Shown here one piece after another: positions 9,813 to 63,649 of a stretch of DNA of 64,000 nt. The DNA lies in assembly GCF_023736115.1 (NCBI RefSeq), contig NZ_JAKQZC010000005.1, positions 496,001 through 560,000 on the forward strand, written 5' to 3'. The stretch's first letter is position 1. The number at the start of each line of letters is the position of its first letter. Origin of the DNA: Salinicola avicenniae (GTDB taxonomy: Bacteria; Pseudomonadota; Gammaproteobacteria; Pseudomonadales; Halomonadaceae). Below the pieces are notes generated by a model. That model did no database searches and was not told where the DNA came from. It was given only the letters and a program-made list of their open reading frames with translations. Position numbers and translations under genes: made by a program.

Positions 9813-9861
9813 AGCGTCCGCGTCAGCTTACGCCGTCGCCAGCTATGTGATCTGGTCATGG

Positions 9862-13815: not shown

Positions 13816-13859
13816 GCCGGCGTCGAGATCCGACATACCGCGCCCTCGCGAACCCTGTC

Positions 13860-13865: not shown

Positions 13866-13904
13866 GGACGCCGCCCGTTATCAGGAAACGAGAGGTTAGC
13901 TTTT

Positions 13905-14498: not shown

Positions 14499-14531
14499 GC
14501 CCCACGACGGTCGTCCCCGACCTGCCATGAA

Positions 14532-14563
14532 GACCGCCCGCCGTGCCATCGCGTCGGGCGGTC
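14532..14563 (+). terminator. Hairpin downstream of yajG
   Basis: GACCGCCCG (14532-14540) pairs exactly with CGGGCGGTC (14555-14563). It stands in the convergent gap between yajG and tpm, so it could end transcripts from both sides. No T-run follows. Confidence 0.5.
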
Positions 14564-14623
14564 AGAGGGTCAATAGCGTGCCCGGCCGCCCCGGTCATCG
14601 CGATACGGTTGCCATAATACCGC

Positions 14624-15271: not shown

Positions 15272-15311
15272 GCGTCGTGCCTCCCTCGCTCGGCGCCGCG
15301 AATCCGCGCCA

Positions 15312-15929
15312 TCAGAACCAGCGGTCGCGCTTGCGACGACGACGCGGCAGATGCGGCACGATCAAGCCGAGGATCAGCCCGGCACCGGCCACGCCGCCGC
15401 CGTACATGAAGTAGCGCAGCAGCAGATCCTCTTCCTGGGTATCCAGACGCGCCTGCATCTCGCGCATCTTGCCCTCGGCCTCTGAGTACGCCTGATTGAG
15501 CTGGTTGTTGGTGGCTTGAAGGTCATCCACCTGCGCTTGGCGACTCTCGAGTTCCTGGCGCATATCGGCCACGCGCTGGTTCCACTCGTCGTCGATGCCG
15601 TCGAGCCGCGAGGTGAGCGATTCGACCTTTTCCTGCAGCGCCGGCAGTTGATCCTGAGCGCTGGGCTCCTGCTGCACGAACTGCGACTGGATCCAGACGG
15701 CATCGCCATCGGGCCCGCGCACCTGGGTGTAATCGCCCTGGGTCTGCAACACGGTGATCGGGTCGCCGCTGGTCAGCGTGCCGACGATGCGATAGCCGTC
15801 GGTGGGGCCGCTACGCACATACGTGGGTAGCTCATCGCTGACCCAATGCCCCTCCTGCGCGGCGGCCGGAAGAGAAAACAGGGCTACGCCGAGCGCACAA
15901 CCCACTGCAACGTTTCGGATTTTCAACAT
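15312..15929 (-). CDS. SH3-domain signal-transduction-type membrane protein (YgiM-like)
   Basis: A 205-residue protein with four parts. It has a signal peptide (GCALGVALFSLPAAAQEG), a bacterial SH3 domain at about residues 28-88 (DELPTYVRSGPTDGYRIVG ... DAVWIQSQFV), a long predicted coiled coil at about 90-165 (repeated Glu/Gln/Leu heptads) and a C-terminal transmembrane helix, MYGGGVAGAGLILGLIVPHL, followed by a basic tail RRRRKRD. This is the architecture of the TIGR04211/YgiM family: a periplasmic SH3 head on a coiled-coil stalk anchored by the C terminus. The function is not established. Confidence 0.87.
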   Translation of the reverse strand: MLKIRNVAVGCALGVALFSLPAAAQEGHWVSDELPTYVRSGPTDGYRIVGTLTSGDPITVLQTQGDYTQVRGPDGDAVWIQSQFVQQEPSAQDQLPALQEKVESLTSRLDGIDDEWNQRVADMRQELESRQAQVDDLQATNNQLNQAYSEAEGKMREMQARLDTQEEDLLLRYFMYGGGVAGAGLILGLIVPHLPRRRRKRDRWF

Positions 15930-16166
15930 ATCGTCGTGATCTTGATGGCTAATCGATGAAGGTTAGGCGTTACGGGCAAACCACTTGCTGGCGACCGCCC
16001 CGCCCACGCGACGATGAGATCGGCCTTCGCATCCTGCTCGGGCCTCGAGCACTCATCCACACATTCTGTGGATAACCGTTGGGACAACCTGCGCAGCATG
16101 GGTCTCATCCACCGGCTGCCCCGGCATTGACGACAAATTGGTGAAAATCTGACCAGACCTCACCGC

Positions 16167-16496
16167 TCAGCTGTCGTCCTTCGGCGGCCAGGCCATGGGC
16201 CGCGGAAATTCCGCAACATTGCCTTCGGCCTTGACCGCCTTGGCAGCGCCCTCGCGCTCCACTTCGTCGATACGCACGATGGCGCTATAGGGAATGTAGC
16301 TGCGATTGACGCCGTCGAAGGTACGGCGCAGTTTCTCCGCACCGGGGTCCACGACCACCTTGGACTGATCCTCGAAGACGAAGGCCTCGACTTCGATGAA
16401 CCCCCATAGCTCACTCTGAAAGATTTCCCGGGCGTAGAGTTCCCACACTTCTCCTTGATTGTGAAATACGACCCGGTAGATCGGCTTGCTGGGCAT
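16167..16496 (-). CDS. DUF1820 family protein
   Basis: A 109-residue soluble protein matching the small gammaproteobacterial DUF1820 family: IYRVVFHNQGEVWELYARE at the start, WGFIEVEAFVFED in the middle and SYIPYSAIVRIDEVE near the C terminus. No function is known. I chose the ATG at 16496 because it gives the conserved N terminus. The longer frame upstream reads Arg-rich sequence across the divergent miaB promoter region. It is transcribed away from miaB. Confidence 0.85.
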   Translation of the reverse strand: MPSKPIYRVVFHNQGEVWELYAREIFQSELWGFIEVEAFVFEDQSKVVVDPGAEKLRRTFDGVNRSYIPYSAIVRIDEVEREGAAKAVKAEGNVAEFPRPMAWPPKDDS

Positions 16497-16603
16497 ATGA
16501 CGAATGACTCTCCCGACGTTGTCGGCCTGCCTCGCGGCGCTGGCATGGCCCGGCAAATAGGCGCAAGGGTACCACAGCCGCCCGCGCATGCGAGCGCAGC
16601 GGG

Positions 16604-16633
16604 TTGGCTGTTGGCCGGCAGCGGCCGTATAAT
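16604..16633 (+). promoter_or_regulatory. Sigma-70-type promoter of the miaB operon
   Basis: TTGGCT (16604-16609), an 18-bp spacer and a perfect TATAAT (16628-16633) lie 94 bp upstream of the miaB start. No other strong pair is seen in the 230-bp gap shared with the DUF1820 gene. Confidence 0.6.
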
Positions 16634-16726
16634 GTGGCGCTTTCCGAGCGGCGTCGCCCAGCTTTCGACAGCGGCAAGCCGTCTCGGTCATTCCCATCTT
16701 CATCCACGGGGACCGGTGACCCGCGC

Positions 16727-18097
16727 ATGGCCACAGCAACGCAACCAGTGACCAAGAAACTCTTCATCAAGACGCACGGCTGTCAGATGAACGAGTACGA
16801 CTCCGCTCGCATGGCGGATCTGCTCGGTGAATCCCACCGCCTCGAGCTGACCGATGACGAGAATCAGGCGGACGTGATCCTGCTAAACACCTGCTCGATT
16901 CGCGAGAAGGCCCAGGAGAAAGTCTTCCACCAGCTCGGGCGCTGGAAAAAGCTCAAGGCCTCGAACCCCGATCTGGTGATCGGCGTCGGCGGCTGTGTCG
17001 CCAGTCAGGAAGGTGACAACATCCGCAAGCGGGCGCCACACGTCGACATGGTCTTCGGCCCGCAGACTCTGCATCGTCTGCCGACCATGCTCGACGCCCG
17101 TAACAGCAGCGCCATGCCGATCCAGGCGGTGGACGTGACCTTTCCCGAGATCGAAAAATTCGATCACCTGCCCAAGCCGAAATCCGATGGCGCCACGGCT
17201 TTCGTCTCGGTGATGGAAGGCTGCTCCAAGTACTGCACTTTCTGCGTGGTGCCCTACACCCGCGGCGAAGAGGTCTCGCGCCCGTTCGAGTCGGTCATGG
17301 AAGAGGTCGTGCACCTCGCCGAACAAGGCGTACGCGAGATCAACCTGCTGGGCCAGAACGTCAACGCCTACCGCGGTCCCGATGCGAGTGGCGACGAGAT
17401 CGATCTGGCCGAGCTGATTGCCTGCGTGGCCGCTGTCGACGGTATCGATCGCATCCGCTTCACCACCTCGCATCCGGTGGAGTTCACGGACAGTCTGATC
17501 GAGGCCTACGGCGAGATTCCCGAACTGGTCAGCCACCTGCATCTGCCGGTGCAGTCCGGCTCCGACCGCATTCTGGCCGCCATGAAACGCGGCCACGGCC
17601 GCGACATGTATATCGAGAAACTCGAGCGCATTCGCGCGCTGCGACCGGAGATCAGCTTCTCCTCGGACTTCATTATCGGCTTCCCCGGCGAGACCGACGA
17701 AGACTTCGAACAGACCATGGATCTGATCCATCGTATCGGTTTCGACGCGTCGTTCAGCTTCATCTACTCCAAGCGCCCCGGCACGCCTGCGTCGTCGCTG
17801 GAGGACGACACGCCGGAAGCGACCAAGAAGCAGCGCCTGGCAGTGCTGCAGGATCGGCTCAATCAGCAGACCCAGCAGATCAGCCGCCGCATGGTCGGCA
17901 ACGTCGAGCGGATTCTGGTCACCGGCTTCTCGCCCAAGGACCCGGGGCAGCTCTCCGGTCGCACAGAGAACAACCGCGTGGTCAACTTCCGCGCCGAGAA
18001 CCCGACCGCGCTGATCGGCTATTTCGTCGATGTCAGCATTACCGAGGCGCTCCCCAACTCGCTGCGCGGCGAGCTGGTCTCCGACGAACGCCATTGA
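16727..18097 (+). CDS. miaB: tRNA-2-methylthio-N6-dimethylallyladenosine synthase MiaB
   Basis: A 456-residue radical SAM methylthiotransferase that adds the 2-methylthio group to i6A37 of tRNAs reading UNN codons. The three N-terminal cluster cysteines are in [21 protein letters not shown] and [11 protein letters not shown]. The radical SAM CxxxCxxC motif is [13 protein letters not shown] domain closes the protein ([10 protein letters not shown] ... [11 protein letters not shown]). Length and order match E. coli MiaB. I chose the ATG at 16727; a GTG at 16748 ([11 protein letters not shown]) would also give a normal N terminus. miaB heads the conserved miaB-phoH-ybeY-corC-lnt cluster. Confidence 0.96.
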
Positions 18098-49603: not shown

Positions 49604-50473
49604 TCAGTCGTGGCGCGGTGGCGAGGCGTCTTCGCGTAGCTGTGCCGCCAGCAGTGACGCCACCAGCGGCGTATCGGCATCACGATGTGTGGGCATGGCG
49701 AAGCGCGCACGCGCGATGTCCGCCCGATCGATGACGGCACTGACGATCCCGCTCCCCGCCGCCGCACGGGCCAGCGGATGGCCGTCGACACCGACGATAC
49801 AGCTGCCTCCCCAAAAACGTCCGCCCTTCTCCTCTCCGTCACGATGTGCCATGACGATCGGCGTGCCGTAGACCATCGCGTAGAAGCGCAGACAGGCCAG
49901 CCAGTTGGCCTCATCGTCGAACTCGCCCTCGACCATACCCAGCGCCGAGTTGATCGGCGTGACGATCAGATCCGGCCGCCTGAGCATCGCGGCGTGAGCC
50001 AGTCCAGGATTCCAGAGATCGGCGCAGATCATGACGCCGCAGGCGAGCCCTCCGGCTTCGGCCTGCGTCAGTTGCCGTCCGGGCCGGAACAGTTTGCCCT
50101 CCTCGTGGCCGCCGTAGGTACACAGGTTCATCTTGCGATGTACGGCAACCACGCGACCGTCGCGCAAGCACGCAGCCGCATTGGCGTACTCGCCAGGCGC
50201 CACGCTTTCGACGAAGCCGACGACGCTGAGCATCTCGCCGCTCGCACGCGCCAACGCCAGCAATCGAGGATCATCGGGCTTCATGGCGACCTCCCTCACG
50301 GTGGCGCCAAGGTCGTAGCCGGTCAGCGAAAGCTCGGGAAATGCCAGCAGCGCAAGGCGACGCTCGCGGCCCTCGCGAATCAACTCGTGATGAATGGCGA
50401 GGTTGGCATCGACATCACCCAGACAGCAATTCATCTGGGCGGCACCGACAAGAGCGGATCGAGTCTCGTCCAT
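49604..50473 (-). CDS. Carbon-nitrogen hydrolase (nitrilase superfamily), copy 1
   Basis: A 289-residue nitrilase-superfamily enzyme. The catalytic triad is Glu47 in FPELSLTGY, Lys114 in VHRKMNL and Cys150 in MICADLWNPG. The superfamily hydrolyses nitriles, amides or carbamoyl groups; the subclass is not clear. It is a paralogue of the enzyme at 54492-55328, sharing HRK.NL.TYGG.EEGK, ICADLWNP and ELP/MPT.RDADTPL near the C terminus. It is divergent from the permease gene at 50746, and the shared gap carries the repeated operator-like motif. Confidence 0.9.
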   Translation of the reverse strand: MDETRSALVGAAQMNCCLGDVDANLAIHHELIREGRERRLALLAFPELSLTGYDLGATVREVAMKPDDPRLLALARASGEMLSVVGFVESVAPGEYANAAACLRDGRVVAVHRKMNLCTYGGHEEGKLFRPGRQLTQAEAGGLACGVMICADLWNPGLAHAAMLRRPDLIVTPINSALGMVEGEFDDEANWLACLRFYAMVYGTPIVMAHRDGEEKGGRFWGGSCIVGVDGHPLARAAAGSGIVSAVIDRADIARARFAMPTHRDADTPLVASLLAAQLREDASPPRHD

Positions 50474-50580: not shown

Positions 50581-50745
50581 CGGCTCCCGATGGCAGGCGC
50601 CGCTAGCGTGTTATTATCATTTTCATAACGTGGATTTATAAAAACGTTCGGATTTACAAACGCATTCACAACAATAACGGTGAGATCAGACAACTTCTCG
50701 CAAGAATCCCCACTGCCGTAACAGCAGAAGACAGAGGAATTGCCT

Positions 50746-51411
50746 GTGGAATTATTGCAGTACGCCCTTGATAACCTGGGGCTGCTCGGCACCCGTACGC
50801 TCGAGCACATCTCGCTGGTCGGCGTGGCCGTCGGCATCGCCACCCTGACAGGCGTTCCCATCGGCATCGCCATCACCCAGAACGAGCGCGTCGCCCGCGC
50901 CGTGCTCTACGTGGCCTCGATCATCGTCACGATCCCCTCGGTCGCCCTGTTCGGCGTGATGATCCCGATCCTGTCGCTGATCGGCCAGGGTATCGGCTAC
51001 CTGCCAGCGGTGATTGCGGTGCTGCTTTATTCGCAGCTGCCGATCATCCGCAATACCTATACGGCGATCCACAACGTCGATCCCGCCCTACGCGAGGCGG
51101 CACGCGGTGTGGGCATGAGTCAACGCCAGCGTCTACGCATGGTCGAGATTCCGCTGGCCGTACCAGTGATCATGGCCGGTGTTCGCACGGCAGTGGTGCT
51201 CAACATCGGCGTCATGGCAATTGCCGCCTATATCGGCGCCGGCGGGCTTGGCACCTTCATCAGCCGTGGCATCTCGCAATCCGACCCTCGCCAACTCATT
51301 CTCGGCGCCGTCGCCGTCAGCCTGCTGGCGATCATCGCCGACTACGCCCTGCTGGCACTCCAGAAGCGTCTGACGCCCAAGGGCATGGCTGTCTCCAGCG
51401 CCACCGCCTGA
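50746..51411 (+). CDS. Quaternary-ammonium ABC transporter permease 1 (OpuCB/YehW-like)
   Basis: A 221-residue permease with about five or six helices (LTGVPIGIAITQNERVARAVLYVASIIVTIPSVALFGVMIPIL). The EAA loop is PALREAARGVGMSQRQRLRMVEIPLAVPVIMAGVRTAVVLNIG. This small permease type belongs to OpuB/OpuC/OsmU importers of betaine, choline or carnitine. The likely start is the GTG at 50746, 6 nt from AGAGGAA; a TTG two codons earlier is too close to it. It is first in a permease-ATPase-permease-binding-protein order identical to E. coli yehWXYZ (OsmU). Confidence 0.92.
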   Translation: MELLQYALDNLGLLGTRTLEHISLVGVAVGIATLTGVPIGIAITQNERVARAVLYVASIIVTIPSVALFGVMIPILSLIGQGIGYLPAVIAVLLYSQLPIIRNTYTAIHNVDPALREAARGVGMSQRQRLRMVEIPLAVPVIMAGVRTAVVLNIGVMAIAAYIGAGGLGTFISRGISQSDPRQLILGAVAVSLLAIIADYALLALQKRLTPKGMAVSSATA

Positions 51412-51511: not shown

Positions 51512-52669
51512 ATGATTCGATTGGACAATCTGACCAAGGTTTTCGACACCCCGGACGGGGCCGTGGTTGCCGCCGACCATATCAGCATGGAAGTTCCCCG
51601 GGGGGAAATCTGCGTCCTCCTGGGCCCTTCCGGCTGCGGCAAGACCACCACATTGAAGATGATCAACCGCATCGTGCGCTCGACCTCCGGCAAGGTCTTT
51701 CTCGACGGCGAGGACACCAGCGGCCTCGATACCGAGGCACTGCGGCGCAACATTGGCTATGTCATCCAGCAGATCGGCCTGTTTCCGAACATGACGATCG
51801 AGGAGAACATTACCGTGGTGCCGAAGCTGCTGGGGTGGGACAAGCAGCGCTACAAGACCCGTGCCCGCGAGCTGATGGATATGATCGCCATGGATGCCGA
51901 GGCCTTCCTCAAGCGCTATCCCAGCGAACTTTCCGGCGGCCAACAGCAACGTATCGGCGTGGCTCGTGCTCTGGCGGCGGACCCGCCGGTCATGCTGATG
52001 GACGAGCCGTTCGGCGCCATCGACCCGATCAACCGCGCCGTGATCCAGGACGAGTTCCTCAAGATGCAGGCGGAACTCCAGAAGACGATCATGTTCGTCA
52101 GCCACGATATCGACGAGGCGATCAAGATGGGCGACCGCATCGCCATCTTCCGCGAAGGCAAGCTGGTGCAGTATTCGGAGCCGGACGAGCTGCTTTCCGC
52201 GCCGAAGAATACCTTCGTCGAATCCTTTCTCGGCGAAGATCGCGCCCTCAAGCGGCTCAATCTGGTCCGCGTGCGCGATGTCATCAGCGACGAGATCGGC
52301 ACGGTCGTCGGCAACGACACCCTGACCACCGCACGCGAGCGTATCGATGCCCACGGCTATCGCGACGCGATTCTGCTGGTCGACGACCGGCGCCGGCCGA
52401 TCGGTGTGATCTCGCGCGACACAACCGGTAGCCACCAGGGCTACTGTCGCGATCACATGCGTGGGCTGCCGGCCGTGGTCAATCTCGGTGACGACCTGCG
52501 CAAGGTGGCCTCGCTGATGTTCGCCCACGACACCACCTGGCTGCCGTGCGTCGATGACAACGGCACGCTATGCGGTCAAATCACCCAGCGCGATATGACC
52601 CATCACCTCGGCTCCCGCTACCGCGCACGTCGCAGCGCGGCGGACAGCGAAAAGCCGGTGGGGAGTTGA
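51512..52669 (+). CDS. Quaternary-ammonium ABC transporter ATPase with CBS pair (OpuCA/YehX-like)
   Basis: A 385-residue ATPase. It has Walker A GPSGCGKTTTL, Q-loop VIQQIGLFPNM, signature LSGGQQQRIGVARAL and Walker B VMLMDEPFGAID. The C-terminal third is a tandem CBS module (about 255-375: AILLVDDRRRPIGVIS, VASLMFAHDTTWLPCVDDNGTLCGQITQRDMTHHL), which in OpuA senses ionic strength or nucleotides. This suggests osmotic gating of transport. Its stop is 3 bp before the second permease gene. Confidence 0.94.
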   Translation: MIRLDNLTKVFDTPDGAVVAADHISMEVPRGEICVLLGPSGCGKTTTLKMINRIVRSTSGKVFLDGEDTSGLDTEALRRNIGYVIQQIGLFPNMTIEENITVVPKLLGWDKQRYKTRARELMDMIAMDAEAFLKRYPSELSGGQQQRIGVARALAADPPVMLMDEPFGAIDPINRAVIQDEFLKMQAELQKTIMFVSHDIDEAIKMGDRIAIFREGKLVQYSEPDELLSAPKNTFVESFLGEDRALKRLNLVRVRDVISDEIGTVVGNDTLTTARERIDAHGYRDAILLVDDRRRPIGVISRDTTGSHQGYCRDHMRGLPAVVNLGDDLRKVASLMFAHDTTWLPCVDDNGTLCGQITQRDMTHHLGSRYRARRSAADSEKPVGS

Positions 52670-52672
52670 GCC

Positions 52673-53407
52673 ATGCCGATCCGATCGCTATCCAGCGCTC
52701 TCAAGCTCGGCGCCGCGATACTCCTGTTCTTGGCCGGGGTCTGGGCCCAGGCCAGCGGCCTGGTCGATGAATTCCGCTTCTACTGGCCCGATATCCGATA
52801 TCTATCGGTGCAGCACCTATGGCTGACCGCGATCTCTGGCGGGCTGGCTGTCGTCGTTGCAGTGCCGCTGGGCGTTCTGCTGTCTCGGCCGAGCGTCTCC
52901 CGCTGGGCGGAGTCGCTGATGCAGTTGCTCAATGTGGGCACGACGATACCGACACTAGCGGTACTCGCGCTCTCGATGAGCTTTCTCGGCATCGGCACGG
53001 CCCCGGCGATCTTCGGGTTGTTCGTGGCGACGCTGCTACCGATCGCCCGCAACACCTATGTCGGGCTGCGCAGTGTCTCCCCCGCGCTGATGGAAGCCGC
53101 TGCGGGCATCGGCATGTCCCCGCTGCAACGCCTGCTGCGCGTCGAACTGCCCAATGCGCTCTATGTCATCTTCGCCGGCATCCGCACGGCGCTGGCGATC
53201 AACATCGGTACCGTCCCGTTGGCATTCCTGATCGGTGCCGGGGGCCTGGGCGAGCTGATCTTCACTGGTATCGATCTCTACGACACGGTGATGATGCTAT
53301 CGGGGGCGATACCGACTGCGCTGCTCGCCGTGCTGGTCGACGTGATGATCGCCTTGATTACGTTCCTGGTGGTACCGCGCGGGGTGAACCCGGCCCGCCA
53401 GCGCTGA
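52673..53407 (+). CDS. Quaternary-ammonium ABC transporter permease 2
   Basis: A 244-residue permease homologous to the one at 50746. An N-terminal hydrophobic segment (GAAILLFLAGVWAQASGL) is followed by a core with NVGTTIPTLAVLALSMSFLGIG and the EAA loop PALMEAAAGIGMSPLQRLLRVELPNALYVIFAGIRTALAINIG. GGLGELIFTGIDLYDT is the conserved last part. It forms the channel with permease 1. It is shorter than E. coli YehY. The ATG follows the ATPase stop by 3 bp. Confidence 0.92.
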   Translation: MPIRSLSSALKLGAAILLFLAGVWAQASGLVDEFRFYWPDIRYLSVQHLWLTAISGGLAVVVAVPLGVLLSRPSVSRWAESLMQLLNVGTTIPTLAVLALSMSFLGIGTAPAIFGLFVATLLPIARNTYVGLRSVSPALMEAAAGIGMSPLQRLLRVELPNALYVIFAGIRTALAINIGTVPLAFLIGAGGLGELIFTGIDLYDTVMMLSGAIPTALLAVLVDVMIALITFLVVPRGVNPARQR

Positions 53408-53516: not shown

Positions 53517-54392
53517 ATGAAACACCTGATGACCGGATTTCTGACCGCCGCCCTCTTTGCGACCGGCAGCGCCAGCGCCGACATTACCGTTGGTGGCAAG
53601 AACTTCACGGAGCAACAGATTCTCGCCAGCATGACGACACAGTATCTGGAAGCGCTCGGCTACGATGTCGACACGCGGGCCGGCATGGGATCTGCCGTGT
53701 TGCGCCGCGCTCAGGAGAACGGACAGATCGATCTCTACTGGGAATACACGGGCACCTCGCTGATCACCTACAACAAGGTGACCGAGAAGCTGTCGCCCGA
53801 GGAGACCTACGCACGGGTCAAGCAGCTCGACGCCGAAAAAGGTCTGGTATGGCTCGAACCGTCCGAGGCCAACAACACCTATGCGCTGGCCATGCGTCGT
53901 GACGATGCCGAGGCTCGCGACATCGATTCGATCGCGGACCTGGCCGATACGATCAACGGCGGCGAGGCTTTGACCTTTGCCTCCAATGCCGAATTCTATG
54001 CCCGCGATGATGGTCTGCGGCCGCTACAGGAGACCTACGGTTTCGAATTCGGTCGTCCCAACATCAAGCGTATGGATTTCGGCCTCACGCTGCCGGCACT
54101 GCGCGACGAGCAGGTCGATGTCTCCATCGCCTACTCCACGGACGGGCGCATTCCCGCGTACGACCTGGTCGTTCTGGACGATAACGAGCAGTTCTTTCCC
54201 AACTACGCGCTGACACCGGTCGCACGCCAGGAGACGCTCGACGAGAACCCCGAACTGGCCGAGCAGATGAACGCCATTTCGGCGCTACTGGATGACGAAA
54301 TCATGGCGTCTCTCAATGCCAGCGTCGACGTCGAGGGCGATAACATCGAAGACGTTGCCCATGATTTCCTGGTCGAGCACGACCTGATCTAA
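53517..54392 (+). CDS. Quaternary-ammonium ABC transporter binding protein (OsmF/YehZ-like)
   Basis: A 291-residue periplasmic binding protein; the signal peptide ends at TGSASADI. ITVGGKNFTEQQILA, VLRRAQENGQIDLYWEYTGTS and ASNAEFYARDDGLRPLQETYGF match the OpuAC family. It is the direct partner of the core genes just upstream. The orphan paralogue at 46481 is alignable throughout, so the system has two receptors, perhaps for two related ligands. The ligand (betaine, choline, carnitine, DMSP or another) cannot be fixed from the sequence. Confidence 0.92.
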   Translation: MKHLMTGFLTAALFATGSASADITVGGKNFTEQQILASMTTQYLEALGYDVDTRAGMGSAVLRRAQENGQIDLYWEYTGTSLITYNKVTEKLSPEETYARVKQLDAEKGLVWLEPSEANNTYALAMRRDDAEARDIDSIADLADTINGGEALTFASNAEFYARDDGLRPLQETYGFEFGRPNIKRMDFGLTLPALRDEQVDVSIAYSTDGRIPAYDLVVLDDNEQFFPNYALTPVARQETLDENPELAEQMNAISALLDDEIMASLNASVDVEGDNIEDVAHDFLVEHDLI

Positions 54393-54491: not shown

Positions 54492-55328
54492 ATGCAGGCG
54501 ACCAGGCCTCCCCTTCATGTCGGCGCCGTGCAGCTCAACAGCACGTTGGGCGAGATTGAGCGCAATACCGAAGCCCATCGTCAATGGATCGCCGAGGCCC
54601 GTCGCCGCGACATCGAACTGCTGGTGTTTCCCGAGCTTTCGCTGACCGGCTACGCCCTTGGCCTGAGCACCCCGCGGGTAGCTTGCGCACGCAACGATCC
54701 GCGACTCGTCGACCTGGCGTCCAGCACAGGCGAGATGCAAGTGATGGTCGGGTTCGTCGAGGCCGCCGGCCCCGGCGAATACTACAACGCCATGGCGATC
54801 CTCCAGCATGGGCGGGTCGTCGACGTGCACCGCAAGCTCAATCTGCCGACTTACGGCGGCCTCGAAGAGGGAAAGTGGTTCCATCGCGGACGCCACCTGA
54901 CGCCGACCCGGCCGCGGCAGGATTGGTGTGCGACGACGCTGATCTGTGCAGACCTATGGAATCCCGCACTGGTCCACGCCGCCCTGCTGGCGCGTCCCGA
55001 CATCCTGTGCGCCCCAATCAACTCCGCTTCTCACATCGTCAGCCAGGGGTTCTCGAACGAAGAGAACTGGCCACTCAATCTACGTTTCTACGCCATGACC
55101 TACGGCACGCCGGTGATCATGGCCAACCGCTTCGGCCCCGAGGGCGAGCACCATTTCTGGGGTGGCAGCCAAATTCTCGGCCCACGAGGGGAAAGGCTCG
55201 CGGAAGCGGCGGCGGGCGAAACCTTGATCGACGCCGAGCTCGATCCTCAGGCCATCGAGATCGCCCGCTTCGAGCTGCCGACGCTGCGGGATGCCGATAC
55301 GCCCTTGATTCGCGAACTGCTGACCTGA
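54492..55328 (+). CDS. Carbon-nitrogen hydrolase (nitrilase superfamily), copy 2
   Basis: A 278-residue enzyme with the triad Glu48 in FPELSLTGY, Lys115 in VHRKLNLPTYGG and Cys152 in LICADLWNP. It is paralogous to the minus-strand copy 4 kb upstream; sequence between motifs differs enough that substrate ranges may differ. It probably hydrolyses an amide, nitrile or carbamoyl compound brought in by the adjacent importer, by inference from position. It starts 99 bp after the binding-protein stop, beyond a terminator hairpin, and is followed 56 bp later by the MmgE/PrpD gene. Confidence 0.9.
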   Translation: MQATRPPLHVGAVQLNSTLGEIERNTEAHRQWIAEARRRDIELLVFPELSLTGYALGLSTPRVACARNDPRLVDLASSTGEMQVMVGFVEAAGPGEYYNAMAILQHGRVVDVHRKLNLPTYGGLEEGKWFHRGRHLTPTRPRQDWCATTLICADLWNPALVHAALLARPDILCAPINSASHIVSQGFSNEENWPLNLRFYAMTYGTPVIMANRFGPEGEHHFWGGSQILGPRGERLAEAAAGETLIDAELDPQAIEIARFELPTLRDADTPLIRELLT

Positions 55329-55384: not shown

Positions 55385-56686
55385 ATGTCCGATTTCGACC
55401 CGATTGACTGGATCGCACGTTTCGACCCCGACACGCTCGATGACGCCAACCTGCACGCCGCCAAGCGCTGCCTGCTGGATCTGCTTGGGGTAGCCGCGGC
55501 GGCCACGGATACCGAACTGGCGAAGATTGCCACGCGCTATGTGAGCGTTCAGCACGCGGGCGCCCGGCCCCTGCTGTTCGCCCGCGGAAGTGCCTCGGAA
55601 ACCGGCGTGGCGCTACACGGCGCCTGGCTGATCGATGCCCTGGATGCCCACGATGGCCAGGTGCTGACCAAAGGTCACGCTGGCGTCGCCCTCTTGCCGG
55701 GCCTGCTGGCGTATGCCGAAGCCGAGTCACTCTCCGGACGCGCTTTTCTCGGCCTGCTCGCCCTCGGCTACGAAATTGCCACTCGCGCGGGCATTGCCCT
55801 GCACGCGACAGCCTGCGACTACCACACCTCGGGAGCCTGGAACGCACTGGCCGTGGCGGCCCTAGGCGGCAAGCTGATCGGACTCGACCGGGACCAGCTA
55901 CGCGAAGCGCTGGGAATCGCCGAGTTCTACGGCCCGCGTAGTCAAATGATGCGCTGTATCGAACATCCGACGATGGTCAAGGACGGCTCCGGCTGGGGTG
56001 CCATGGCCGGGGTAGCGGCAAGCCTGCTCGCTCGCGAAGGCTTCACCGGCGCCCCTGCCATCACCGTGACGGGTAACGATGTCGACGATATCTGGCAAGA
56101 TCTCGGTCAGCGCTGGTATCTGCAGGAGCAGTATTTCAAGGCCTATCCGGTCTGCCGATGGGCACAGCCCGCCGTCGAGGCCGCCCTGTCACTACGCGAC
56201 GCGGTCGGGGATGCCGCGCGCATCGTCCAGATCGACGTCCACACCTTTCACGAGGGGGTCTGTCTGGCTACCGCCAATCCCGAGACCACCGAAGCGGCAC
56301 AATACAGCCTGCCCTGGCCCGTCGCCTGTGCCGTGGCCACCGGGCAGGTCAATGCCTCCAGCGTCACCGACTCGCTGACAGACCCAGCGCTGCAGGCGCT
56401 CGCCCGCCGCATCGTCATGCACCGACACGCCGACTACGATGCCCGCTTCCCTGCCGAGCGCTGGGCCCACGTCAACATGACGCTGACCGATGGGAGCGTT
56501 CTCGAGAGCCTACCCTGCGAGGCACGTGGCAACCCCTCCAACCCCTTGTCGGATCAAGAGCTCGAACACAAGTACCAGCGCCTCGCCGAGCCGGTACTCG
56601 GCGAGGCGGCATCTGGCCTGCGTGACACGGTCATGCGGCTCGAGCATGGTTCGGTGCGCGATCTGCTACGCTATCTGCGTCAATAA
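55385..56686 (+). CDS. MmgE/PrpD family protein
   Basis: A 433-residue member of the MmgE/PrpD (2-methylcitrate dehydratase, cis-aconitate decarboxylase) superfamily. The N terminus has HAAKRCLLDLLGVAAAAT, then HGAWLIDALDAHDGQVLTKGHAGVALLPGLLAYAEAESLSG and the LQEQYFKAYPVCRWAQPAVEAAL motif, all in family order. Members outside the methylcitrate pathway act on varied hydroxy acids, so the substrate is open. No prpB, prpC or acnD is near, which argues against the methylcitrate cycle. AGGA precedes the ATG. It probably shares a transcript with the nitrilase gene. Confidence 0.87.
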   Translation: MSDFDPIDWIARFDPDTLDDANLHAAKRCLLDLLGVAAAATDTELAKIATRYVSVQHAGARPLLFARGSASETGVALHGAWLIDALDAHDGQVLTKGHAGVALLPGLLAYAEAESLSGRAFLGLLALGYEIATRAGIALHATACDYHTSGAWNALAVAALGGKLIGLDRDQLREALGIAEFYGPRSQMMRCIEHPTMVKDGSGWGAMAGVAASLLAREGFTGAPAITVTGNDVDDIWQDLGQRWYLQEQYFKAYPVCRWAQPAVEAALSLRDAVGDAARIVQIDVHTFHEGVCLATANPETTEAAQYSLPWPVACAVATGQVNASSVTDSLTDPALQALARRIVMHRHADYDARFPAERWAHVNMTLTDGSVLESLPCEARGNPSNPLSDQELEHKYQRLAEPVLGEAASGLRDTVMRLEHGSVRDLLRYLRQ

Positions 56687-57114: not shown

Positions 57115-57239
57115 TCGCGTTCGCCATGGCTGACGCCGCGTCGATACGTACAACATCATCAAGTTGAAGGGTGAACGGCCGATAAGATTCGAGTTCCCGC
57201 GGACGGCAACTCCGCTCCGCCTTGCGAGAGACGCTATCG

Positions 57240-59345
57240 ATGTCGACGAACGACGAAGCCAGTGAGTGCGCCCCGGAAGGCCCACTTGGCTACCGGTTGC
57301 AGACGAACAACCGCCCCGACGATCAGCCATCGTTGCCCGATGTCGATAAACGCGCGACCGCCGCCTTGGCCGCGACCGGTCAGTCGATCTGGCACTGGTC
57401 GCTGTCGGATCGCCTACGCCTGAGCACCAGCCCGGCCACCCTGCCTCGGCATCAGCGTCCCGGTGCAATGCCATCGGCACAGCCGCTGGCACTCGCCATA
57501 CCAGACCTGCGGCGCCTGGCCCGCGCCCGCCGCCGCCTGATCGACAACACCGAAGACTCACTGGACCTCGTCGTCAAGCTCGAGTCAGACGCGACGCGAC
57601 GCCTGCGCATTCGCGGCCGCATCACTGCACGTGACACCGCGGGCCAGCCGGTCAGCGCGACTGGCACTTGGGAGGCACTCCCCGCCCCCCTTGATGCCGA
57701 CCACGAAACGCGCGTGCGGGCGCATGCTTTTGCGGCCTCGCGCGACCCGATGCTGGTGGTCGATGACAAATGGCGAATTCTCGAGAGCAATCATGCCTTC
57801 ATGACGCTGAGCGGTTGCGCCCCAAAAGCGCTGGGTAACGAATCGCTGGCGTCTTACCTGGATGCCTCCGCGCTCGAACAAGCGCCGGCCGCACTGGCAC
57901 GACTGAGCCATCTGCAGCCTCACGAAGGCACCCTGACGGCCTGCGACGGCAACGAGATCCCGGTCGAGCTGACGCTCAGCGACTTCCGCCTCGACGAGCG
58001 AGATCACGTGCACTATATCGCTGCCCTGCGCGACATTTCTGCGCGTAAGCGCTCCGAGCGTGAACTGGAGCACCTGGCCAGCATCGATACCCTGACCCAA
58101 CTGCCTAATCGGGCAACGCTGCAGTACCGGCTGCGTCAGGCGCTGGAGCACGGCCCGGCGAGCGAGCCGTTGGCGATCCTGTTCATCGATCTCGACGGGT
58201 TCAAGCACATCAACGATTCGCTCGGCCACCAGGCCGGCGACAGGCTGCTGCGCGTGATGGTCAAACGCCTGCGGGCCACATTACGCAACCGGGACCTGAT
58301 CGCCCGCTGGGGCGGCGACGAATTCGTGGTCGTGATCGATATCGACGACGACGCACAACTGGCCGACAGGATTGCCCATCGTCTGCTTGAAGCGCTCTCC
58401 CAGCCGATGGTGATCGGCGGCCATCAAATCAGCGTAACCGCGAGCATCGGCATCGTGCATGCCCCCGCGGATGGCAGCGATAGTGACACCCTGCTCAAGC
58501 ACGCGGATGTAGCGATGTATGCGGCCAAGGACAAGGGCAAGAACGCGATCGTCGCTTATCACAACCAGCTGGAGCACCATAACCTCGAGCAGATGTCGAT
58601 GCTGTCGCAACTGCGCGAGGCGATCACGCGGGAAACCCTGGATTTCGTGGTCCAGCCCAAGTTCGACGGCGACAACCGGATGATCGGCGCGGAACTGCTG
58701 GCCCGCTGGCAGACCGAGGATTACGGCCAGGTGCCGCCCAGCACCTTTGTGCCGCTCGCGGAGCACAATGGCATGGCGTCCGCCCTGGGGGCATTGGCGA
58801 TCGAACACGCTGCACGCTACGCCGCCATGCTGGCCGCTACCGGCCATCCGCTGCCGGTGGCCGTCAATATCTCGGCGCTACATGTGATGGACGACGCCCT
58901 GGGCGAGACCCTGAGTGAGGCCTGCCGCCGCCACGACATTTCGACCGATCAGATCGAGCTGGAGGTCACCGAATCGGTCTTTCTGGAGAACACGCGTGCG
59001 CCCGAGGCCCGCATCGAGATGCTGCGTCAGGCGGGTTATCGCGTGGCCATGGATGATTTCGGTGCCGGCTACTCGTCGCTGGGTTATCTCAAGCGACTGC
59101 CGTTCGACACGATCAAGATCGACCGCAGTTTCATGCACGACCTCGAAGCGGACCCGCGATCGCGTCACCTGCTCGCGGGTATCGTCGGGCTATGCAACCT
59201 GCTTGGCATGGAGACCGTGGCGGAAGGCGTGGAAACCGAGGCGCAGTGGGCCCTGCTGCAGGAGCTAGGGATTACGCACTATCAAGGCTTCTACCTCGGC
59301 CGTCCCATGCCGATGTCGCAGCTGGTCGCCCTGCTGGACAAATAG
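57240..59345 (+). CDS. PAS-GGDEF-EAL cyclic-di-GMP protein
   Basis: A 701-residue protein for making and breaking cyclic di-GMP. A PAS domain lies at about 155-270 (AASRDPMLVVDDKWRILESNHAF ... YIAALRDISARKR). The GGDEF motif is intact at residues 358-362 (RWGGDEF), with an inhibitory-site RNRD placed five residues upstream. The phosphodiesterase domain has ELL in place of EAL at 485-487, but the catalytic Glu and DDFGAGYSSLGYLKRLPFDTIKID, EVTES and a late EGVETEAQ are kept. So both activities are possible. No membrane helices or signal are seen. I use the ATG at 57240; a TTG at 57222 is less likely. Confidence 0.92.
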   Translation: MSTNDEASECAPEGPLGYRLQTNNRPDDQPSLPDVDKRATAALAATGQSIWHWSLSDRLRLSTSPATLPRHQRPGAMPSAQPLALAIPDLRRLARARRRLIDNTEDSLDLVVKLESDATRRLRIRGRITARDTAGQPVSATGTWEALPAPLDADHETRVRAHAFAASRDPMLVVDDKWRILESNHAFMTLSGCAPKALGNESLASYLDASALEQAPAALARLSHLQPHEGTLTACDGNEIPVELTLSDFRLDERDHVHYIAALRDISARKRSERELEHLASIDTLTQLPNRATLQYRLRQALEHGPASEPLAILFIDLDGFKHINDSLGHQAGDRLLRVMVKRLRATLRNRDLIARWGGDEFVVVIDIDDDAQLADRIAHRLLEALSQPMVIGGHQISVTASIGIVHAPADGSDSDTLLKHADVAMYAAKDKGKNAIVAYHNQLEHHNLEQMSMLSQLREAITRETLDFVVQPKFDGDNRMIGAELLARWQTEDYGQVPPSTFVPLAEHNGMASALGALAIEHAARYAAMLAATGHPLPVAVNISALHVMDDALGETLSEACRRHDISTDQIELEVTESVFLENTRAPEARIEMLRQAGYRVAMDDFGAGYSSLGYLKRLPFDTIKIDRSFMHDLEADPRSRHLLAGIVGLCNLLGMETVAEGVETEAQWALLQELGITHYQGFYLGRPMPMSQLVALLDK

Positions 59346-59439: not shown

Positions 59440-60723
59440 TCAGACTTCCTGCGCCAGCAACCGATCGTCGAACGGGTAGCGAGACAGCTTTTCGATGCCG
59501 CTATCGGTGATCAACACCTCTTCCTCGAGCTTGACGCCGTCGGCAGCGCCTACCTCACCGATATAACTCTCCACCGAAACGACCATGCCGGGCTCGAGAA
59601 TGCCATCTTTCGAGAAGGCGTCGAAGTCCATGTGGTGGGCGACCAGCGGCGTCTCGCCGTGCATGCCGACGCCATGGATGATCGATGGATAGCGGCGATC
59701 GAGGAATCGCGCCGGAATCTTCCACGCCCGCTCGGCGAGTTCACGATAGCTGACGCCGGGTCCCAGCAACCCCATATTGTGGTGAACCTGGTCGTACGCC
59801 ATGCGATAGAGATGGCGCTGATAGTCCGAGGGCTTGCCCGGGCCGACGTGGAAGGTCCGCGAAAAGTCCGAGTAGTAGCCGTGACAACCAATGGTATCGG
59901 TGTCGAGGGCGACCAGCTCGCCGGGGCGGATGACCCGGTCGCTGGCTTCGTTGAACCAGGGGTTGGTGCGCGGTCCGGAAGAGAGCAGACGAGTCTCGAT
60001 GAACTCCCCCCCCTGCTCGATCACGTTACCGTACATGATCGCGAACAGCTCGTTCTCCGTGATCCCAGGGCGAATCGCCTCCTCGACCCGAGCCACGGCG
60101 GCTTCGCTGCCTGCCATCGACTGCGCCAGGCAGGCAATTTCTTCCGGCGTCTTGATGCGCCGGCAGTGGAGCGTGTCCTGCATGCAGTCGTAGACGTCGA
60201 GTCCCTGGGCCTCCAGCGAACGCGCCAGGTTCAGTGCACAGCGATCCAGTCCCACCTTGCGGTTGCCACCACCGTGCGCGTTGACCAGTTCGGCGATTTC
60301 GATGCCGAAAGGGTCGCTCGAGAGATTGTCGCGCTGATTGACCGCCGACCAGACCACTTTGGAAGTGCGTGATTCGTCGATTGTCTCGAGCCACGTCGAC
60401 ACATGAGCGCTGCCCGGATACTCGAACAGGATCACCGGCCCCTCGAGTGGGACGTAGATATAGCGCGTCGAGTTGCGCAGAAAGTAGCCGAACATGTTAC
60501 GCGACCCGGTCGCGTAGCGTTGGTTATTGGGATCGAAGAGTACCAGCGCGGCGTACTCCTGCTCTCGCATCATGTCGCGTAAACGCGCCAGGCGACCACC
60601 GCGCAGCTGCACGGGGTCGAAGGCGGTGGGAATACTGTCGCCGTTGGCCATGGGCGCAGAGGGCACGACGGGGATGCGATCCGGTTCGTGATCGGAAAGC
60701 GATTCGAATTCGATAGTGCTCAT
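59440..60723 (-). CDS. M24 (creatinase/prolidase-fold) protein related to DMSP lyase DddP
   Basis: A 427-residue M24-fold protein. Metal ligands visible are Asp274 and Asp276 (ALDTDTIG), Asp286 (YYSDFSRT), His350 (IHGVG), Glu385 (SVESY) and Glu400 (KLEEEV). Compared with the Asp295/Asp297/Asp307/His371/Glu406/Glu421 site I recall for DddP, each is offset by exactly 21, so spacing is preserved throughout. GGEFIETRLLSSGPRTNPWF is also DddP-like. Tyr345 corresponds to DddP Tyr366. The proposed catalytic Asp377 of DddP falls on Gly356 here, so DMSP lyase activity should not be assumed; an Xaa-Pro or related peptidase or lyase is possible. The DddP numbering is from memory. It follows the 2OG-oxygenase gene by 108 bp. 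Confidence 0.88.
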   Translation of the reverse strand: MSTIEFESLSDHEPDRIPVVPSAPMANGDSIPTAFDPVQLRGGRLARLRDMMREQEYAALVLFDPNNQRYATGSRNMFGYFLRNSTRYIYVPLEGPVILFEYPGSAHVSTWLETIDESRTSKVVWSAVNQRDNLSSDPFGIEIAELVNAHGGGNRKVGLDRCALNLARSLEAQGLDVYDCMQDTLHCRRIKTPEEIACLAQSMAGSEAAVARVEEAIRPGITENELFAIMYGNVIEQGGEFIETRLLSSGPRTNPWFNEASDRVIRPGELVALDTDTIGCHGYYSDFSRTFHVGPGKPSDYQRHLYRMAYDQVHHNMGLLGPGVSYRELAERAWKIPARFLDRRYPSIIHGVGMHGETPLVAHHMDFDAFSKDGILEPGMVVSVESYIGEVGAADGVKLEEEVLITDSGIEKLSRYPFDDRLLAQEV

Positions 60724-60831: not shown

Positions 60832-61716
60832 TTAGTCGGCCAGGCTGTCGCTGCGTCGAGTCTGGCCTTCGCGCAACATGCGCTCGTGAACCGGCGCCAT
60901 GCGCCCAAAGATCCGTTGTGCCCGTTCGGGTCGGCCGATGAAGCCCGGCTCCTTGGCGTAGGCGAAGATAACGGTATGCCGTTCACGGTCGCCCCTGACC
61001 GGCGTGACCCGATGCAGCGAGTAGCGGCCGAAGAATATCTGCAAGTCGCCGAGCTGCAGGTCGAGTGACTTGAGCCCCTGCGATTCGCCGTCGAGCACGC
61101 GCTCGACACCGTCATAGTTCTCGCCCTCGGGGCTACGAATGCCGGGGGCATATTCGAAGCGTCCGCCGTCCTCCGGCTTGCGCGTCAGCAGCGTGACGAT
61201 GAACTCGTTGGTATCGTAATGCCAAGGGTGCTGGCATCCCTCCCGCAGCACGTTGACGACGAGATCGGCCAGCGGGTCGGCATACTCGTGGATCGTCTCC
61301 ATCCCGACCACGCTAGCAATGAAGCGCTGGAACTGGGCGTTGCCGTAGAGCTGGCGAATGATCGTCGATTGATCGATGCGGTCCCCCGCCACGAAACCGT
61401 TGGTACGGTCATCGAAACGGTTCTTCGGGTGACGCGCGGGTAGCGTGGCATCGCCCTCGGAGTTGTAGGGATTTGTCTCGTTCTGATTGTAGTGCGCCGC
61501 CGGCGAGAGTCGCTCGGTCTCGCGCTCCAGTCGTGCCAAGGCTTCTTCCGACACGAAGCGCTTGAGCACTACGCAGCCATCTTCCGCCAGCTGCGCCCGA
61601 CAGGTAGCGAGCAGGTCGCGGCCGACATCGCTGTCGAGGTCATCGAGCGGGTAGCGTTCGAGATTGACCAAACCCTCGAGAGCGCGTGTGGGCACGGCGG
61701 CGTTGGAACCAGACAT
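60832..61716 (-). CDS. 2-oxoglutarate/Fe(II)-dependent oxygenase, BesD/HalD-like family
   Basis: A 294-residue cupin-fold oxygenase. The facial triad is His166-x-Asp168 in WHYDTNEF and His235 in GRYSLHRVTPV, with an Arg (241-246) for 2-oxoglutarate. The segment GGRFEYAPGIRSPEGENYDGV and the late GDLQIFFGRYSLHRV match the BesD/HalD-like amino-acid-modifying enzymes. In the halogenases the Asp is replaced by Gly; here it is Asp, so hydroxylation or another oxygenation is expected rather than chlorination. AGGAG precedes the ATG. It is divergent from lysR, with an inverted repeat between them, and probably forms an operon with the M24 gene. Confidence 0.85.
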   Translation of the reverse strand: MSGSNAAVPTRALEGLVNLERYPLDDLDSDVGRDLLATCRAQLAEDGCVVLKRFVSEEALARLERETERLSPAAHYNQNETNPYNSEGDATLPARHPKNRFDDRTNGFVAGDRIDQSTIIRQLYGNAQFQRFIASVVGMETIHEYADPLADLVVNVLREGCQHPWHYDTNEFIVTLLTRKPEDGGRFEYAPGIRSPEGENYDGVERVLDGESQGLKSLDLQLGDLQIFFGRYSLHRVTPVRGDRERHTVIFAYAKEPGFIGRPERAQRIFGRMAPVHERMLREGQTRRSDSLAD

Positions 61717-61825: not shown

Positions 61826-62719
61826 ATGGATCCCGATCTGCTGAGAGCCTTCGTCGCGGTGGCCGAATGCGAAGGCTTCAGTGCCGCCGGCCGCATTCTC
61901 AATCGCACCCAGTCTGCGGTCAGCCTGCAGATCAAACGGCTCGAGGATCGCGTGCGCGAGCCACTGTTCGAGCGCACCAGTCGTAGCGTCACGCTCACCC
62001 CCGCCGGAGGGCGGCTCCTGCCCTACGCACGCCAGATACTCAAGCTGCAGGACGAAGCCAAGCGCGTGATGTCGAGCGAGCGTGAGGGTCGGTTGATCCG
62101 CCTGGGTATCTCAGACGAACAGGCCACCGCCTACCTGCCAGACCTGCTGCCTCGCTTTGCCGAACGCTTCCCGCATGTGCGAATCGAAGTTAACTGCGAT
62201 ATCAGCAGCAGCCTGATCCAGCGCTTTCAGGAAGGGCTGCTCGACGTGGTGCTGGCCGTGCGCCACGGCCCGACCCAGACCGGACAGCTGTTGGGGCGGG
62301 AACAGATGGTATGGGCAATTGCCGAGCATCGCGACATCGATGACTGGGAAACGCTACCCTTGGCACTCAATCCAGAGGGCTGCATCTTCCGTGCGCACGC
62401 CTTCGCCGCCCTGGGCCGCGAGGAGCGCCAATGGGACGTGCGCTATACCAGCCCTTCGCCGACCGGCGTCAACGTCGCCGTACAGGCAGGCCTGGCGCTG
62501 ACGGTCAAAACGCCTCGAAGCTTACCGCCGGGCTGTCGGACCATCGATGCCGCCGGCCGGTTGCCGGAGCTGGGCTACGTCGAGATCGAGCTGCATCGTT
62601 CACCGGGCGAACTGAGTGAAGAGTTCGAGGCATTCTGTCAGGCGTTGATGGAGATCGTCGTGCAGGCTGACAGCGTCGAGGGCCTGGAGCCGGTAGCGCC
62701 GGCCGGCGCGCTCACGTAA
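61826..62719 (+). CDS. LysR-type transcriptional regulator
   Basis: A 297-residue regulator. The winged helix-turn-helix is DLLRAFVAVAECEGFSAAGRILNRTQSAVSLQIKRLEDRV with FERTSRSVTLTPAGGRLL after it. The effector domain follows (RLIRLGISDEQATAYLPDLLPRFAERFPHVRIEV, VNVAVQAGLALTV). It is divergent from the oxygenase-M24 pair and most likely controls it, and may autoregulate through the AATAG-N12-CTATT repeat. AGGAG supports the ATG. Confidence 0.95.
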   Translation: MDPDLLRAFVAVAECEGFSAAGRILNRTQSAVSLQIKRLEDRVREPLFERTSRSVTLTPAGGRLLPYARQILKLQDEAKRVMSSEREGRLIRLGISDEQATAYLPDLLPRFAERFPHVRIEVNCDISSSLIQRFQEGLLDVVLAVRHGPTQTGQLLGREQMVWAIAEHRDIDDWETLPLALNPEGCIFRAHAFAALGREERQWDVRYTSPSPTGVNVAVQAGLALTVKTPRSLPPGCRTIDAAGRLPELGYVEIELHRSPGELSEEFEAFCQALMEIVVQADSVEGLEPVAPAGALT

Positions 62720-62767: not shown

Positions 62768-63649
62768 ATGGCTTTGACCTTCAGTCTAATCGCCCCGGCC
62801 TCGTTTACCGACCCGACGCTTCTCGAACGCGCCGCCGCGGCGCTTGAGGATTTCGGCTTCGGGGTGCGTTTTCCGACCCGCCTGCAGGCCCGGACCCGAT
62901 ATCTGGCCGGCGACCTCGAACATCGTCTGGAGACACTGTACGCCGCCTACGCGACCTCCGATACCGACGCTGTATGGGCGGTTCGCGGCGGCTACGGCTG
63001 CGCGCATCTCGCCTCCGAACTCGACTGGTCACGCCTCGCGCCCAAGCCGCTGATCGGCTACTCGGATCTCAGCGTGCTGCTGGACCAGTGCCACCATCAC
63101 GGCTTGCCGGCGATACACGGTCCGGTGATGAAGGAAGGCGTCAAGCTGACGGCGGACGACGAGGCTGTCCGCCTGGCCAGTCGGCGGGACCTCGAGGGGC
63201 TGCGCTCGCTATTGCAGGGCGAGCGACTCTCGGCGCAGCCTCTGCAGCCGGTCATCCCCTCGACAAGGGCGATCGAGGGAGCACTGGTCGGCGGCAATCT
63301 GGCAACCCTGGCGAGCGTCGCTGGCACGCCGCTCGCCTTCCGTGCTCCGCCGCGCAGCATCGTGATACTCGAGGATGTCGGTGAGCCCTACTATCGGCTT
63401 GAACGAGACCTGTGGCAGCTCGTCTACTCGGGAGCACTGGACGACGCCGGCGCCGTCTGCCTGGGGACGTTCGAGAACTGCACGCCGTATGGCGACCTCC
63501 AGATCGAAACGCTCTTCGAGACCTGGCTCGCCCCGCGCCGGATTCCCCTCTACACCGGGCTGCCCATGGGTCACGGCCGCGACAATCTGCCGTGGCGCTA
63601 CGGCGCCAGCGCGCGCATCGTCAATGACCAGTTACAGTTTCTGGCGTGA
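62768..63649 (+). CDS. ldcA: LD-carboxypeptidase (peptidase family S66)
   Basis: A 293-residue S66 serine peptidase that trims the terminal D-Ala from murein tetrapeptides in the cytosol during wall recycling. The nucleophile Ser is in LIGYSDLS, the Glu in ILEDVGEPYYRLERDL and the His in GLPMGHGRDNLPW. WAVRGGYGCAH before the nucleophile is also conserved. It lies 48 bp after lysR on the same strand, so read-through is possible. Its cellular role need not relate to the neighbouring genes. Confidence 0.92.
   Translation: MALTFSLIAPASFTDPTLLERAAAALEDFGFGVRFPTRLQARTRYLAGDLEHRLETLYAAYATSDTDAVWAVRGGYGCAHLASELDWSRLAPKPLIGYSDLSVLLDQCHHHGLPAIHGPVMKEGVKLTADDEAVRLASRRDLEGLRSLLQGERLSAQPLQPVIPSTRAIEGALVGGNLATLASVAGTPLAFRAPPRSIVILEDVGEPYYRLERDLWQLVYSGALDDAGAVCLGTFENCTPYGDLQIETLFETWLAPRRIPLYTGLPMGHGRDNLPWRYGASARIVNDQLQFLA

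Follow-up and report, generated by a model that had tools for sequence, protein, structure and literature searches.

We identified in Salinicola avicenniae a predicted metal-dependent M24 enzyme encoded beside a putative Fe(II)/2OG oxygenase, and we put at about one in two the probability that it takes part in the breakdown of quaternary-ammonium betaines and that DMSP is not its main substrate. One M24 family was found paired with three unrelated enzyme types, two of which (MttB and Rieske) have members that attack N-methyl groups; the simplest reading is betaine catabolism next to an oxidation or demethylation step. On the same simplest reading, the 2OG enzyme fills in halophiles the oxidation–demethylation slot of the MttB and Rieske enzymes. 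Our two best guesses for the betaine are one of the proline-betaine type and a glycine betaine precursor.

Placement of the M24 protein relative to DddP and peptidases

The gene of the M24 protein was confirmed at positions 59440–60723 of the window (the whole stretch of 64,000 nucleotides that was analysed), where the first-pass annotation had placed it without giving a strand; it lies on the minus strand and encodes 427 amino acids that match Pfam Peptidase_M24 (116.9 bits) and Creatinase_N (34.7 bits). When the protein was compared with PDB sequences using phmmer, the top four chains were all DddP (4s01, 4rzy, 4b28 and 4s00; E = 8.8e-74 to 2.2e-72) and outranked the best peptidase by 55 orders of magnitude, the first non-DddP chain being a proline dipeptidase (E = 5.7e-18). 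A DddP match of about 1e-73 set against 5.7e-18 is thus far beyond chance, and an ordinary Xaa-Pro peptidase was rejected on the same comparison; the PepQ model gave 68.4 bits against a cut-off of 630. Ectoine hydrolase DoeA was also rejected, since two NCBIfam models gave 46.5 and 21.4 bits with cut-offs of 575 and 613.

The AlphaFold model (mean pLDDT 73.3, pTM 0.76; residues 68–85 and 249–258 under 50) was compared with known structures by VIA-align, which re-aligns Foldseek's own matches only. DddP was aligned over 389 residues (Z = 37.5, rmsd 3.5) and the best dipeptidase entry over 348 residues (Z = 30.7, rmsd 3.7), and Foldseek agreed that DddP was the best match. Placement among Xaa-Pro peptidases, the outcome named earlier as counter-evidence, was therefore not what we saw: DddP was nearer by both sequence and predicted fold. 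With DddP (RlDddP, 4rzy/4s00/4s01; RdDddP, 4b28), the protein has in common the fold, the six metal ligands and Tyr366, with about 30% of residues identical in the structure alignment, but it differs in having Gly for Asp377 and His for Cys376, in belonging to a separate clade and in its fixed 2OG neighbour. The pita-bread fold is common to the M24B Xaa-Pro dipeptidases and aminopeptidase P, although the sequence match is much weaker and the scores are far below the peptidase cut-offs. Ectoine hydrolase (DoeA/EutD) and creatinase are likewise M24 enzymes that break down small solutes (fold Z of about 29); the window protein, however, falls far below both DoeA cut-offs.

The NCBIfam equivalog model of DddP (NF043017) gave 312.5 bits for the window protein, below the cut-off of 600, and 626.5 bits, above it, for an annotated DddP from Oceanisphaera (L144). 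A phylogeny including DddP had been suggested as a check, and in our 58-row tree the window protein lay outside the clade of RlDddP: the latter was found in a clade of 8 (100/100) nested in a clade of 10 (100/99), and the former in a separate clade of 18 (96/100) that includes Sinorhizobium proteins. Row L127 (same place as L166), which adjoins the DddP clade, was MttB-linked. The root of this tree was not used because some of the outgroup rows, which came from the genome of the window protein, were ORFs read in the wrong frame, with branch lengths of 7–10. An outgroup-free tree of 55 DddP-like M24 rows (31 with Gly and 24 with Asp at position 377) needed a single D/G change, and the branch dividing the Gly-type from the Asp-type rows, where long branches meet, was weak (82/44). 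By the bit-score and tree tests, the window M24 protein is not a DddP.

The source genome (4.03 Mb) has six Pfam M24 matches, and at E = 1e-5 it had one other match to the M24 protein, 25% identical. The nearest named relatives in the scan were from Salinicola, with an M24 gene up to 94% identical among the matches listed. In one genome of the same genus (G006), an M24 fragment (positions 1399–1920 of locus L018, 67% identical) is broken by an internal stop, so the 2OG–M24 module seems to be decaying there.

Active-site residues

Residues were mapped in a 127-row alignment that included residues 54–444 of the 4rzy chain (RlDddP); a broken fragment (L018_1), a partial copy (L112_2), the window gene itself (L001_1) and rows identical beyond the first 45 residues were removed beforehand. 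The ligands D295, D297, D307, H371, E406 and E421 of RlDddP corresponded to D274, D276, D286, H350, E385 and E400 of the window protein, Tyr366 to Tyr345, and Asp377 to Gly356. The first-pass annotation had proposed these correspondences with a constant offset of 21 and had made its assignment depend on an offset match to a DddP structure; the match to the 4rzy chain was found, and the offset was borne out at the six ligands, Tyr345 and Gly356. According to the report on RdDddP, that enzyme has the six ligands, Tyr366 and Asp377 just as they had been listed; Tyr366 and Asp377 are said there to be invariant in DddP lyases, with Asp377 favoured as the base and Tyr366 named as the alternative (PMC4108388).

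In the window protein, H355–G356 replaces C376–D377 of RlDddP. Position 377 was Gly in all 93 rows of the window protein's clade, His355 was invariant in 46 aligned clade members that were 71–94% identical to the query, and all six metal ligands were kept in 124 of the 125 loci examined. The DddP clade, like some rows elsewhere, reads CD at 376–377; most Asp-type relatives linked to MttB or Rieske enzymes read AD (with CD in L149 and VD in L167), the window protein's clade reads HG, and group B, a 12-row branch of the 58-row tree, reads TG or SG. Gly356 may leave room for a substrate that is bulkier than DMSP or hydroxylated.

The partner Fe(II)/2OG oxygenase

Directly upstream of the M24 gene, 108 bases away on the same strand, lies a gene that was absent from the earlier annotation (positions 60832–61716, minus strand). 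It encodes a 294-residue putative Fe(II)/2OG oxygenase of the HalD family (Pfam HalD, 65.1 bits), with weak matches in the PDB to lysine halogenases and lysine hydroxylases (E = 0.0015 to 0.0064). The facial triad (H166-x-D168 and H235) and the 2OG-binding Arg (R246) were invariant in 101 of 101 aligned rows. Halogenases of the HalD type carry HxG in place of HxD; a halogenase identity was rejected because Asp occupies position 168 in every one of these rows, and the partner should accordingly hydroxylate rather than halogenate. It therefore resembles the HalD/BesD-type lysine halogenases and lysine hydroxylases in matching Pfam HalD, but it keeps HxD and its substrate is likely different.

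The pairing was examined in 80 loci, the best 80 of 245 confirmed in a scan of genome contigs, and in all 80 the 2OG gene adjoined the M24 gene upstream on the same strand, with gaps of 10–210 bases. In group B, it was found in the same place in 9 of 12 loci (L103–L110 and L140), where the M24 and 2OG proteins were 42–47% and 45–48% identical to those of the window, respectively, and no 2OG gene was found in that place in L102, L164 and L165. Among 125 loci, some of which are one genome met in two collections, 92 were Gly-type with an upstream 2OG gene, 9 Gly-type without it, 23 Asp-type without it and one (L141) Asp-type with it. Across 398 genomes sampled from the phylum, coordinates placed a 2OG gene next to the M24 genes at least 71% identical and next to one 65% copy (G073); none was adjacent in eight genomes with a rhizobial-type M24 (64–65%), four of which had only a 32–34% match elsewhere. 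The 2OG search of the same genomes gave a match in 23. Four Rhodobacteraceae-like genomes (family code f73) had 42–45% 2OG matches away from their M24 gene, with surroundings that gave no clear clue to function. As far as sequence comparison can tell, the 2OG oxygenase is the upstream neighbour in every examined clade member outside rhizobia.

The divergence of the M24 protein was correlated with that of the 2OG protein (r = 0.934, 69 rows, partly reflecting shared species history), and none of 2000 permutations gave a value as high; near-copies (under 3% different) had been removed beforehand, as had L187, apparently from the same organism as L098. On a plasmid of a marine Rhodobacteraceae (L142, positions 7950–16783), a 38% identical 2OG gene occurs without M24; its neighbours encode an FAD oxidoreductase, an MttB-type protein and an ABC importer of the peptide type, which further links this 2OG oxygenase family to quaternary amines.

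Gene neighbourhood in the window and in related loci

A LysR-type regulator gene (positions 61826–62719, plus strand; Pfam HTH_1 and LysR_substrate) is divergent from the oxygenase gene in the window; it is adjoined by a gene for an LD-carboxypeptidase-type (S66) protein (62768–63649, plus strand), a relative of which was likewise placed in 5 loci. On the other side of the M24 gene, the betaine-type ABC importer that had been noted about 5 kb away proved real. Its genes, all on the plus strand, encode a permease (50740–51411), an ATPase of the ProV type with CBS domains (51512–52669; Pfam ABC_tran and CBS; TIGR01186 proV, 331.5 bits with a cut-off of 326.6), a second permease (52673–53407) and an OsmF/ProX-type binding protein (53517–54392; Pfam OpuAC, 220.4 bits; OsmF 4wep in the PDB, E = 2e-42), the permeases being named by position and by eye. 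A distance of 5,047 bases separates the OsmF-type gene from the M24 gene, which is on the opposite strand. Between importer and M24 are genes for a nitrilase-superfamily amidase (54492–55328, plus strand; Pfam CN_hydrolase, 102.7 bits) and, all by eye, an MmgE/PrpD-like protein, a small membrane protein and a GGDEF/EAL-like protein. The MmgE/PrpD-like gene (55385–56686, plus strand) has 433 codons from an ATG chosen against L023, where its relative gave only 24 bits with the PrpD model. The GGDEF/EAL-like gene (57222–59345, plus strand; 707 amino acids) is convergent to the M24 gene, and relatives of its product were found in that place in Salinicola loci only (5 loci). A second nitrilase-superfamily gene (49604–50473, minus strand; CN_hydrolase, 102.3 bits) lies on the far side of the importer genes and is divergent from them.

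Neighbours in the best 80 of the 245 confirmed loci were counted by tblastn; ORF calls were misled by shadow ORFs in the G+C-rich DNA. Since the genome collections overlap (e.g. L003 and L022), these are not counts of independent organisms. The LysR gene was divergent in 76 of the 80 loci. An MmsA-type dehydrogenase was present in 42 and directly followed M24 in 34 (671.5 bits for the copy in L028, with a cut-off of 448.5), a nitrilase in 31 (directly after M24 on the same strand in L093 and L101), and MmgE/PrpD in 11. The counts for isochorismatase (1; L066, 27% identity), GMC (1) and a GbdR-like regulator (6) were not relied on. The OsmF-type binding protein was found in 28 loci (21 downstream on the minus strand, 5 upstream minus, 1 downstream plus and 1 upstream plus). 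These four arrangements of position and strand suggest that the importer link was re-formed more than once; where each flank extended 7.5 kb or more (64 loci), an importer gene was present in 24 and is therefore not obligatory. The importer link proposed in the first-pass annotation thus holds to the extent that an OsmF-type gene recurs in related loci, but no such gene was found within the stretch covered in the other 52 of the 80. In L071, L078 and L085, two Liv-type-looking ATPase genes (by eye) lie between the regulator and the oxygenase instead. In Rhodosalinus (L092, positions 10318–14754), the 2OG–M24 pair is followed by LysR, a membrane-dipeptidase-like gene (by eye), an unknown 564-residue protein and an Ldh2-type gene (48%), and further on, on the other strand, by a gene resembling a betaine-type binding protein.

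Relatives with other partner enzymes

Rhizobial members of the window protein's clade had no 2OG gene beside M24. On the megaplasmid of Sinorhizobium meliloti, an M24 protein that is 64.6% identical and also has HG at 376–377 is encoded in a run of genes for an MttB-type methyltransferase, a GbdR-like regulator, M24, an isochorismatase-type amidase, an Opu-type (OsmF-type) importer, MR/MLE and Ldh2, and Shinella and another Sinorhizobium carry the same MttB-to-Ldh2 run. Among 2OG-bearing loci of the clade, MR/MLE, Ldh2 and MttB were met once each (L091, 66%; L092, 48%; and L098, 48%, respectively). The MttB family includes enzymes that attack N-methyl groups of quaternary amines, as stated in PMC8604678. 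MttB proteins of the relatives matched 4yyc, 2qne and 9yce in the PDB, and the substrate was not pinned by the matches of MR/MLE, MttB, nitrilase, isochorismatase or MmgE/PrpD.

In other relatives, MttB, DMGDH, M24 and BHMT occur together in L166, L174 and L175, and in Terrarubrum a sarcosine oxidase, a DMGDH-like protein, BHMT, MttB, MR/MLE and M24 are encoded in one run. M24 relatives thus sit inside betaine demethylation operons (MttB/BHMT/DMGDH/sarcosine oxidase, or a Rieske enzyme of the GbcA or stachydrine demethylase type), whereas the oxygenase of the window group is of the Fe/2OG type; to our knowledge, the textbook routes of betaine demethylation have no place for an M24 step. Such neighbours, the GbdR-like regulators beside relatives (which score below their cut-off), the amidase genes found as partners and a group-B locus (L104) adjoining genes that resemble those of carnitine and gamma-butyrobetaine catabolism (by eye) would all suit an M24 enzyme acting before the oxygenase or demethylase, on an imported conjugate or precursor; the glycine betaine released by this cleavage would then be demethylated by the 2OG, MttB or Rieske enzyme. 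We consider this order unlikely, however, as no natural precursor was found to fit every context, hydroxyproline genes adjoin some of the Rieske-linked relatives, and we know of no 2OG enzyme that demethylates glycine betaine.

Rieske oxygenases, too, include enzymes that attack N-methyl groups of quaternary amines. Asp-type relatives in Rhizobium lie in a run of genes for LysR, a Rieske oxygenase, a reductase, M24 and a GlxA regulator, which adjoins formaldehyde-removal genes or hydroxyproline/proline catabolic genes, with a betaine/proline importer and, in L157, putA. The Rieske enzyme matched 4qup and 3vca, which we take to be stachydrine demethylases, at about 1e-101. These partners, together with the M24 fold, which is the prolidase fold, and the MR/MLE genes near several relatives, could be explained if M24 acted on proline betaine, hydroxyproline betaine or N-methylproline made from them by the partner. 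Against this, the Rieske enzyme also gave 411.9 bits with GbcA (below the cut-off of 670), in the Halomonas-group loci MmsA-type genes occur and proline genes were not recognised, and the MR/MLE copy of L139 was much closer to its best match, 2pgw (an unassigned 'muconate cycloisomerase'), than to 2pmq and 4h2h, presumably hydroxyproline betaine epimerase; this assignment likewise seems improbable to us.

Six of the ten rows of the DddP clade (L143, L144, L168, L171, L172 and L173) were examined with wide flanks, and up to 6.5 kb away no gene of the 2OG, MttB or Rieske type was found; L143 has an MR/MLE gene. On a plasmid of Rhizobium leguminosarum (L146, positions 14228–17279), two genes annotated as DMSP lyase family lie beside ETF, formaldehyde-removal and M24 genes; given this betaine-like context, their names may be misleading.

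Proposed function

A dipeptidase for peptides of proline, hydroxyproline or N-methyl amino acids, kept in betaine operons for co-regulation, would account for the M24 fold, the prolidase relatives and the hydroxyproline genes near some relatives, but the far weaker dipeptidase match, the PepQ score and a fixed 2OG partner, which is not expected for a peptidase, make it quite doubtful. We regard as very unlikely an atypical DMSP or DMSOP lyase in which Tyr345 or His355 replaces Asp377 as the base: although DddP enzymes are the closest solved relatives and all ligands and Tyr366, the alternative base, are kept, the protein scores about half the DddP cut-off, lies outside the DddP clade, has neighbours unlike those of the six DddP-clade loci above and lacks the Asp that PMC4108388 describes as invariant in DddP lyases. 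The first-pass annotation had left the choice between such a lyase and a DddP relative with a new reaction; the separate clade and the score (312.5 against 600 bits) better support the latter as the probable identity, and the former gains no support, since 2OG, MttB and Rieske genes stand next to relatives of the window gene but were not found up to 6.5 kb away in the six DddP-clade loci.

The preferred reading is thus a two-enzyme module, in which the Fe/2OG oxygenase and the DddP-like M24 protein, with the divergent LysR alongside, would break down an imported betaine. The betaine would enter through an Opu/Osm-type or other osmolyte carrier, and the oxygenase would hydroxylate either its carbon chain or one of its N-methyl groups. 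Its carboxylate would be held on the two-metal centre of M24, a proton would be removed by Tyr345 or a metal-bound hydroxide (or possibly by His355), and M24 would cut a C–N or C–O bond, either in the betaine itself or in the product of its oxidation. An aldehyde product would then pass to the CoA-acylating (methyl)malonate-semialdehyde dehydrogenase (MmsA-type), where present. In a tentative version of this route, which we think possible at clearly less than even odds, M24 cleaves a betaine first hydroxylated or demethylated by the 2OG enzyme, MttB or Rieske enzymes can replace the oxygenase, and DddP may be a single sulfur-using branch within a larger family of M24 enzymes that cleave betaines.

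We count in favour of the betaine module the 2OG pairing (80 of 80 loci among the best 80 of 245, and 9 of 12 in group B) and the co-divergence of the two proteins, as well as the relatives in MttB, Rieske and DMGDH/BHMT runs and the OsmF-type and MmsA genes. Counted against it are the rhizobial clade members and the nine Gly-type loci without a 2OG gene, the Asp-type locus L141 with one, and the weak branch between Gly and Asp types (82/44). The same holds for the amidase partner genes, which the betaine scheme does not account for, and for the importer, whose OsmF-type gene was not found within the stretch covered in 52 of the best 80 of 245 loci and which in the window is encoded on the strand opposite to M24 and separated from it by unrelated genes.

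As judged from alignments and gene order, these proteins are a DddP-like M24 subfamily in which the active-site pair has changed and the oxygenase partner is constant except in rhizobia. In the literature searched (open-licence papers), we found no paper describing the 2OG–M24 pair. Ocean surveys count dddP as the commonest of the ddd genes, at about 65% of them according to PMC10686828. The pair at positions 376–377 of DddP (mainly CD, AD, HG, TG and SG) may serve to sort the family. Should nitrogen betaines be substrates of the wider M24 family, DddP-like genes found in halophiles and rhizobia ought to be left out of counts of DMS producers, and a step of betaine catabolism would gain a candidate gene.
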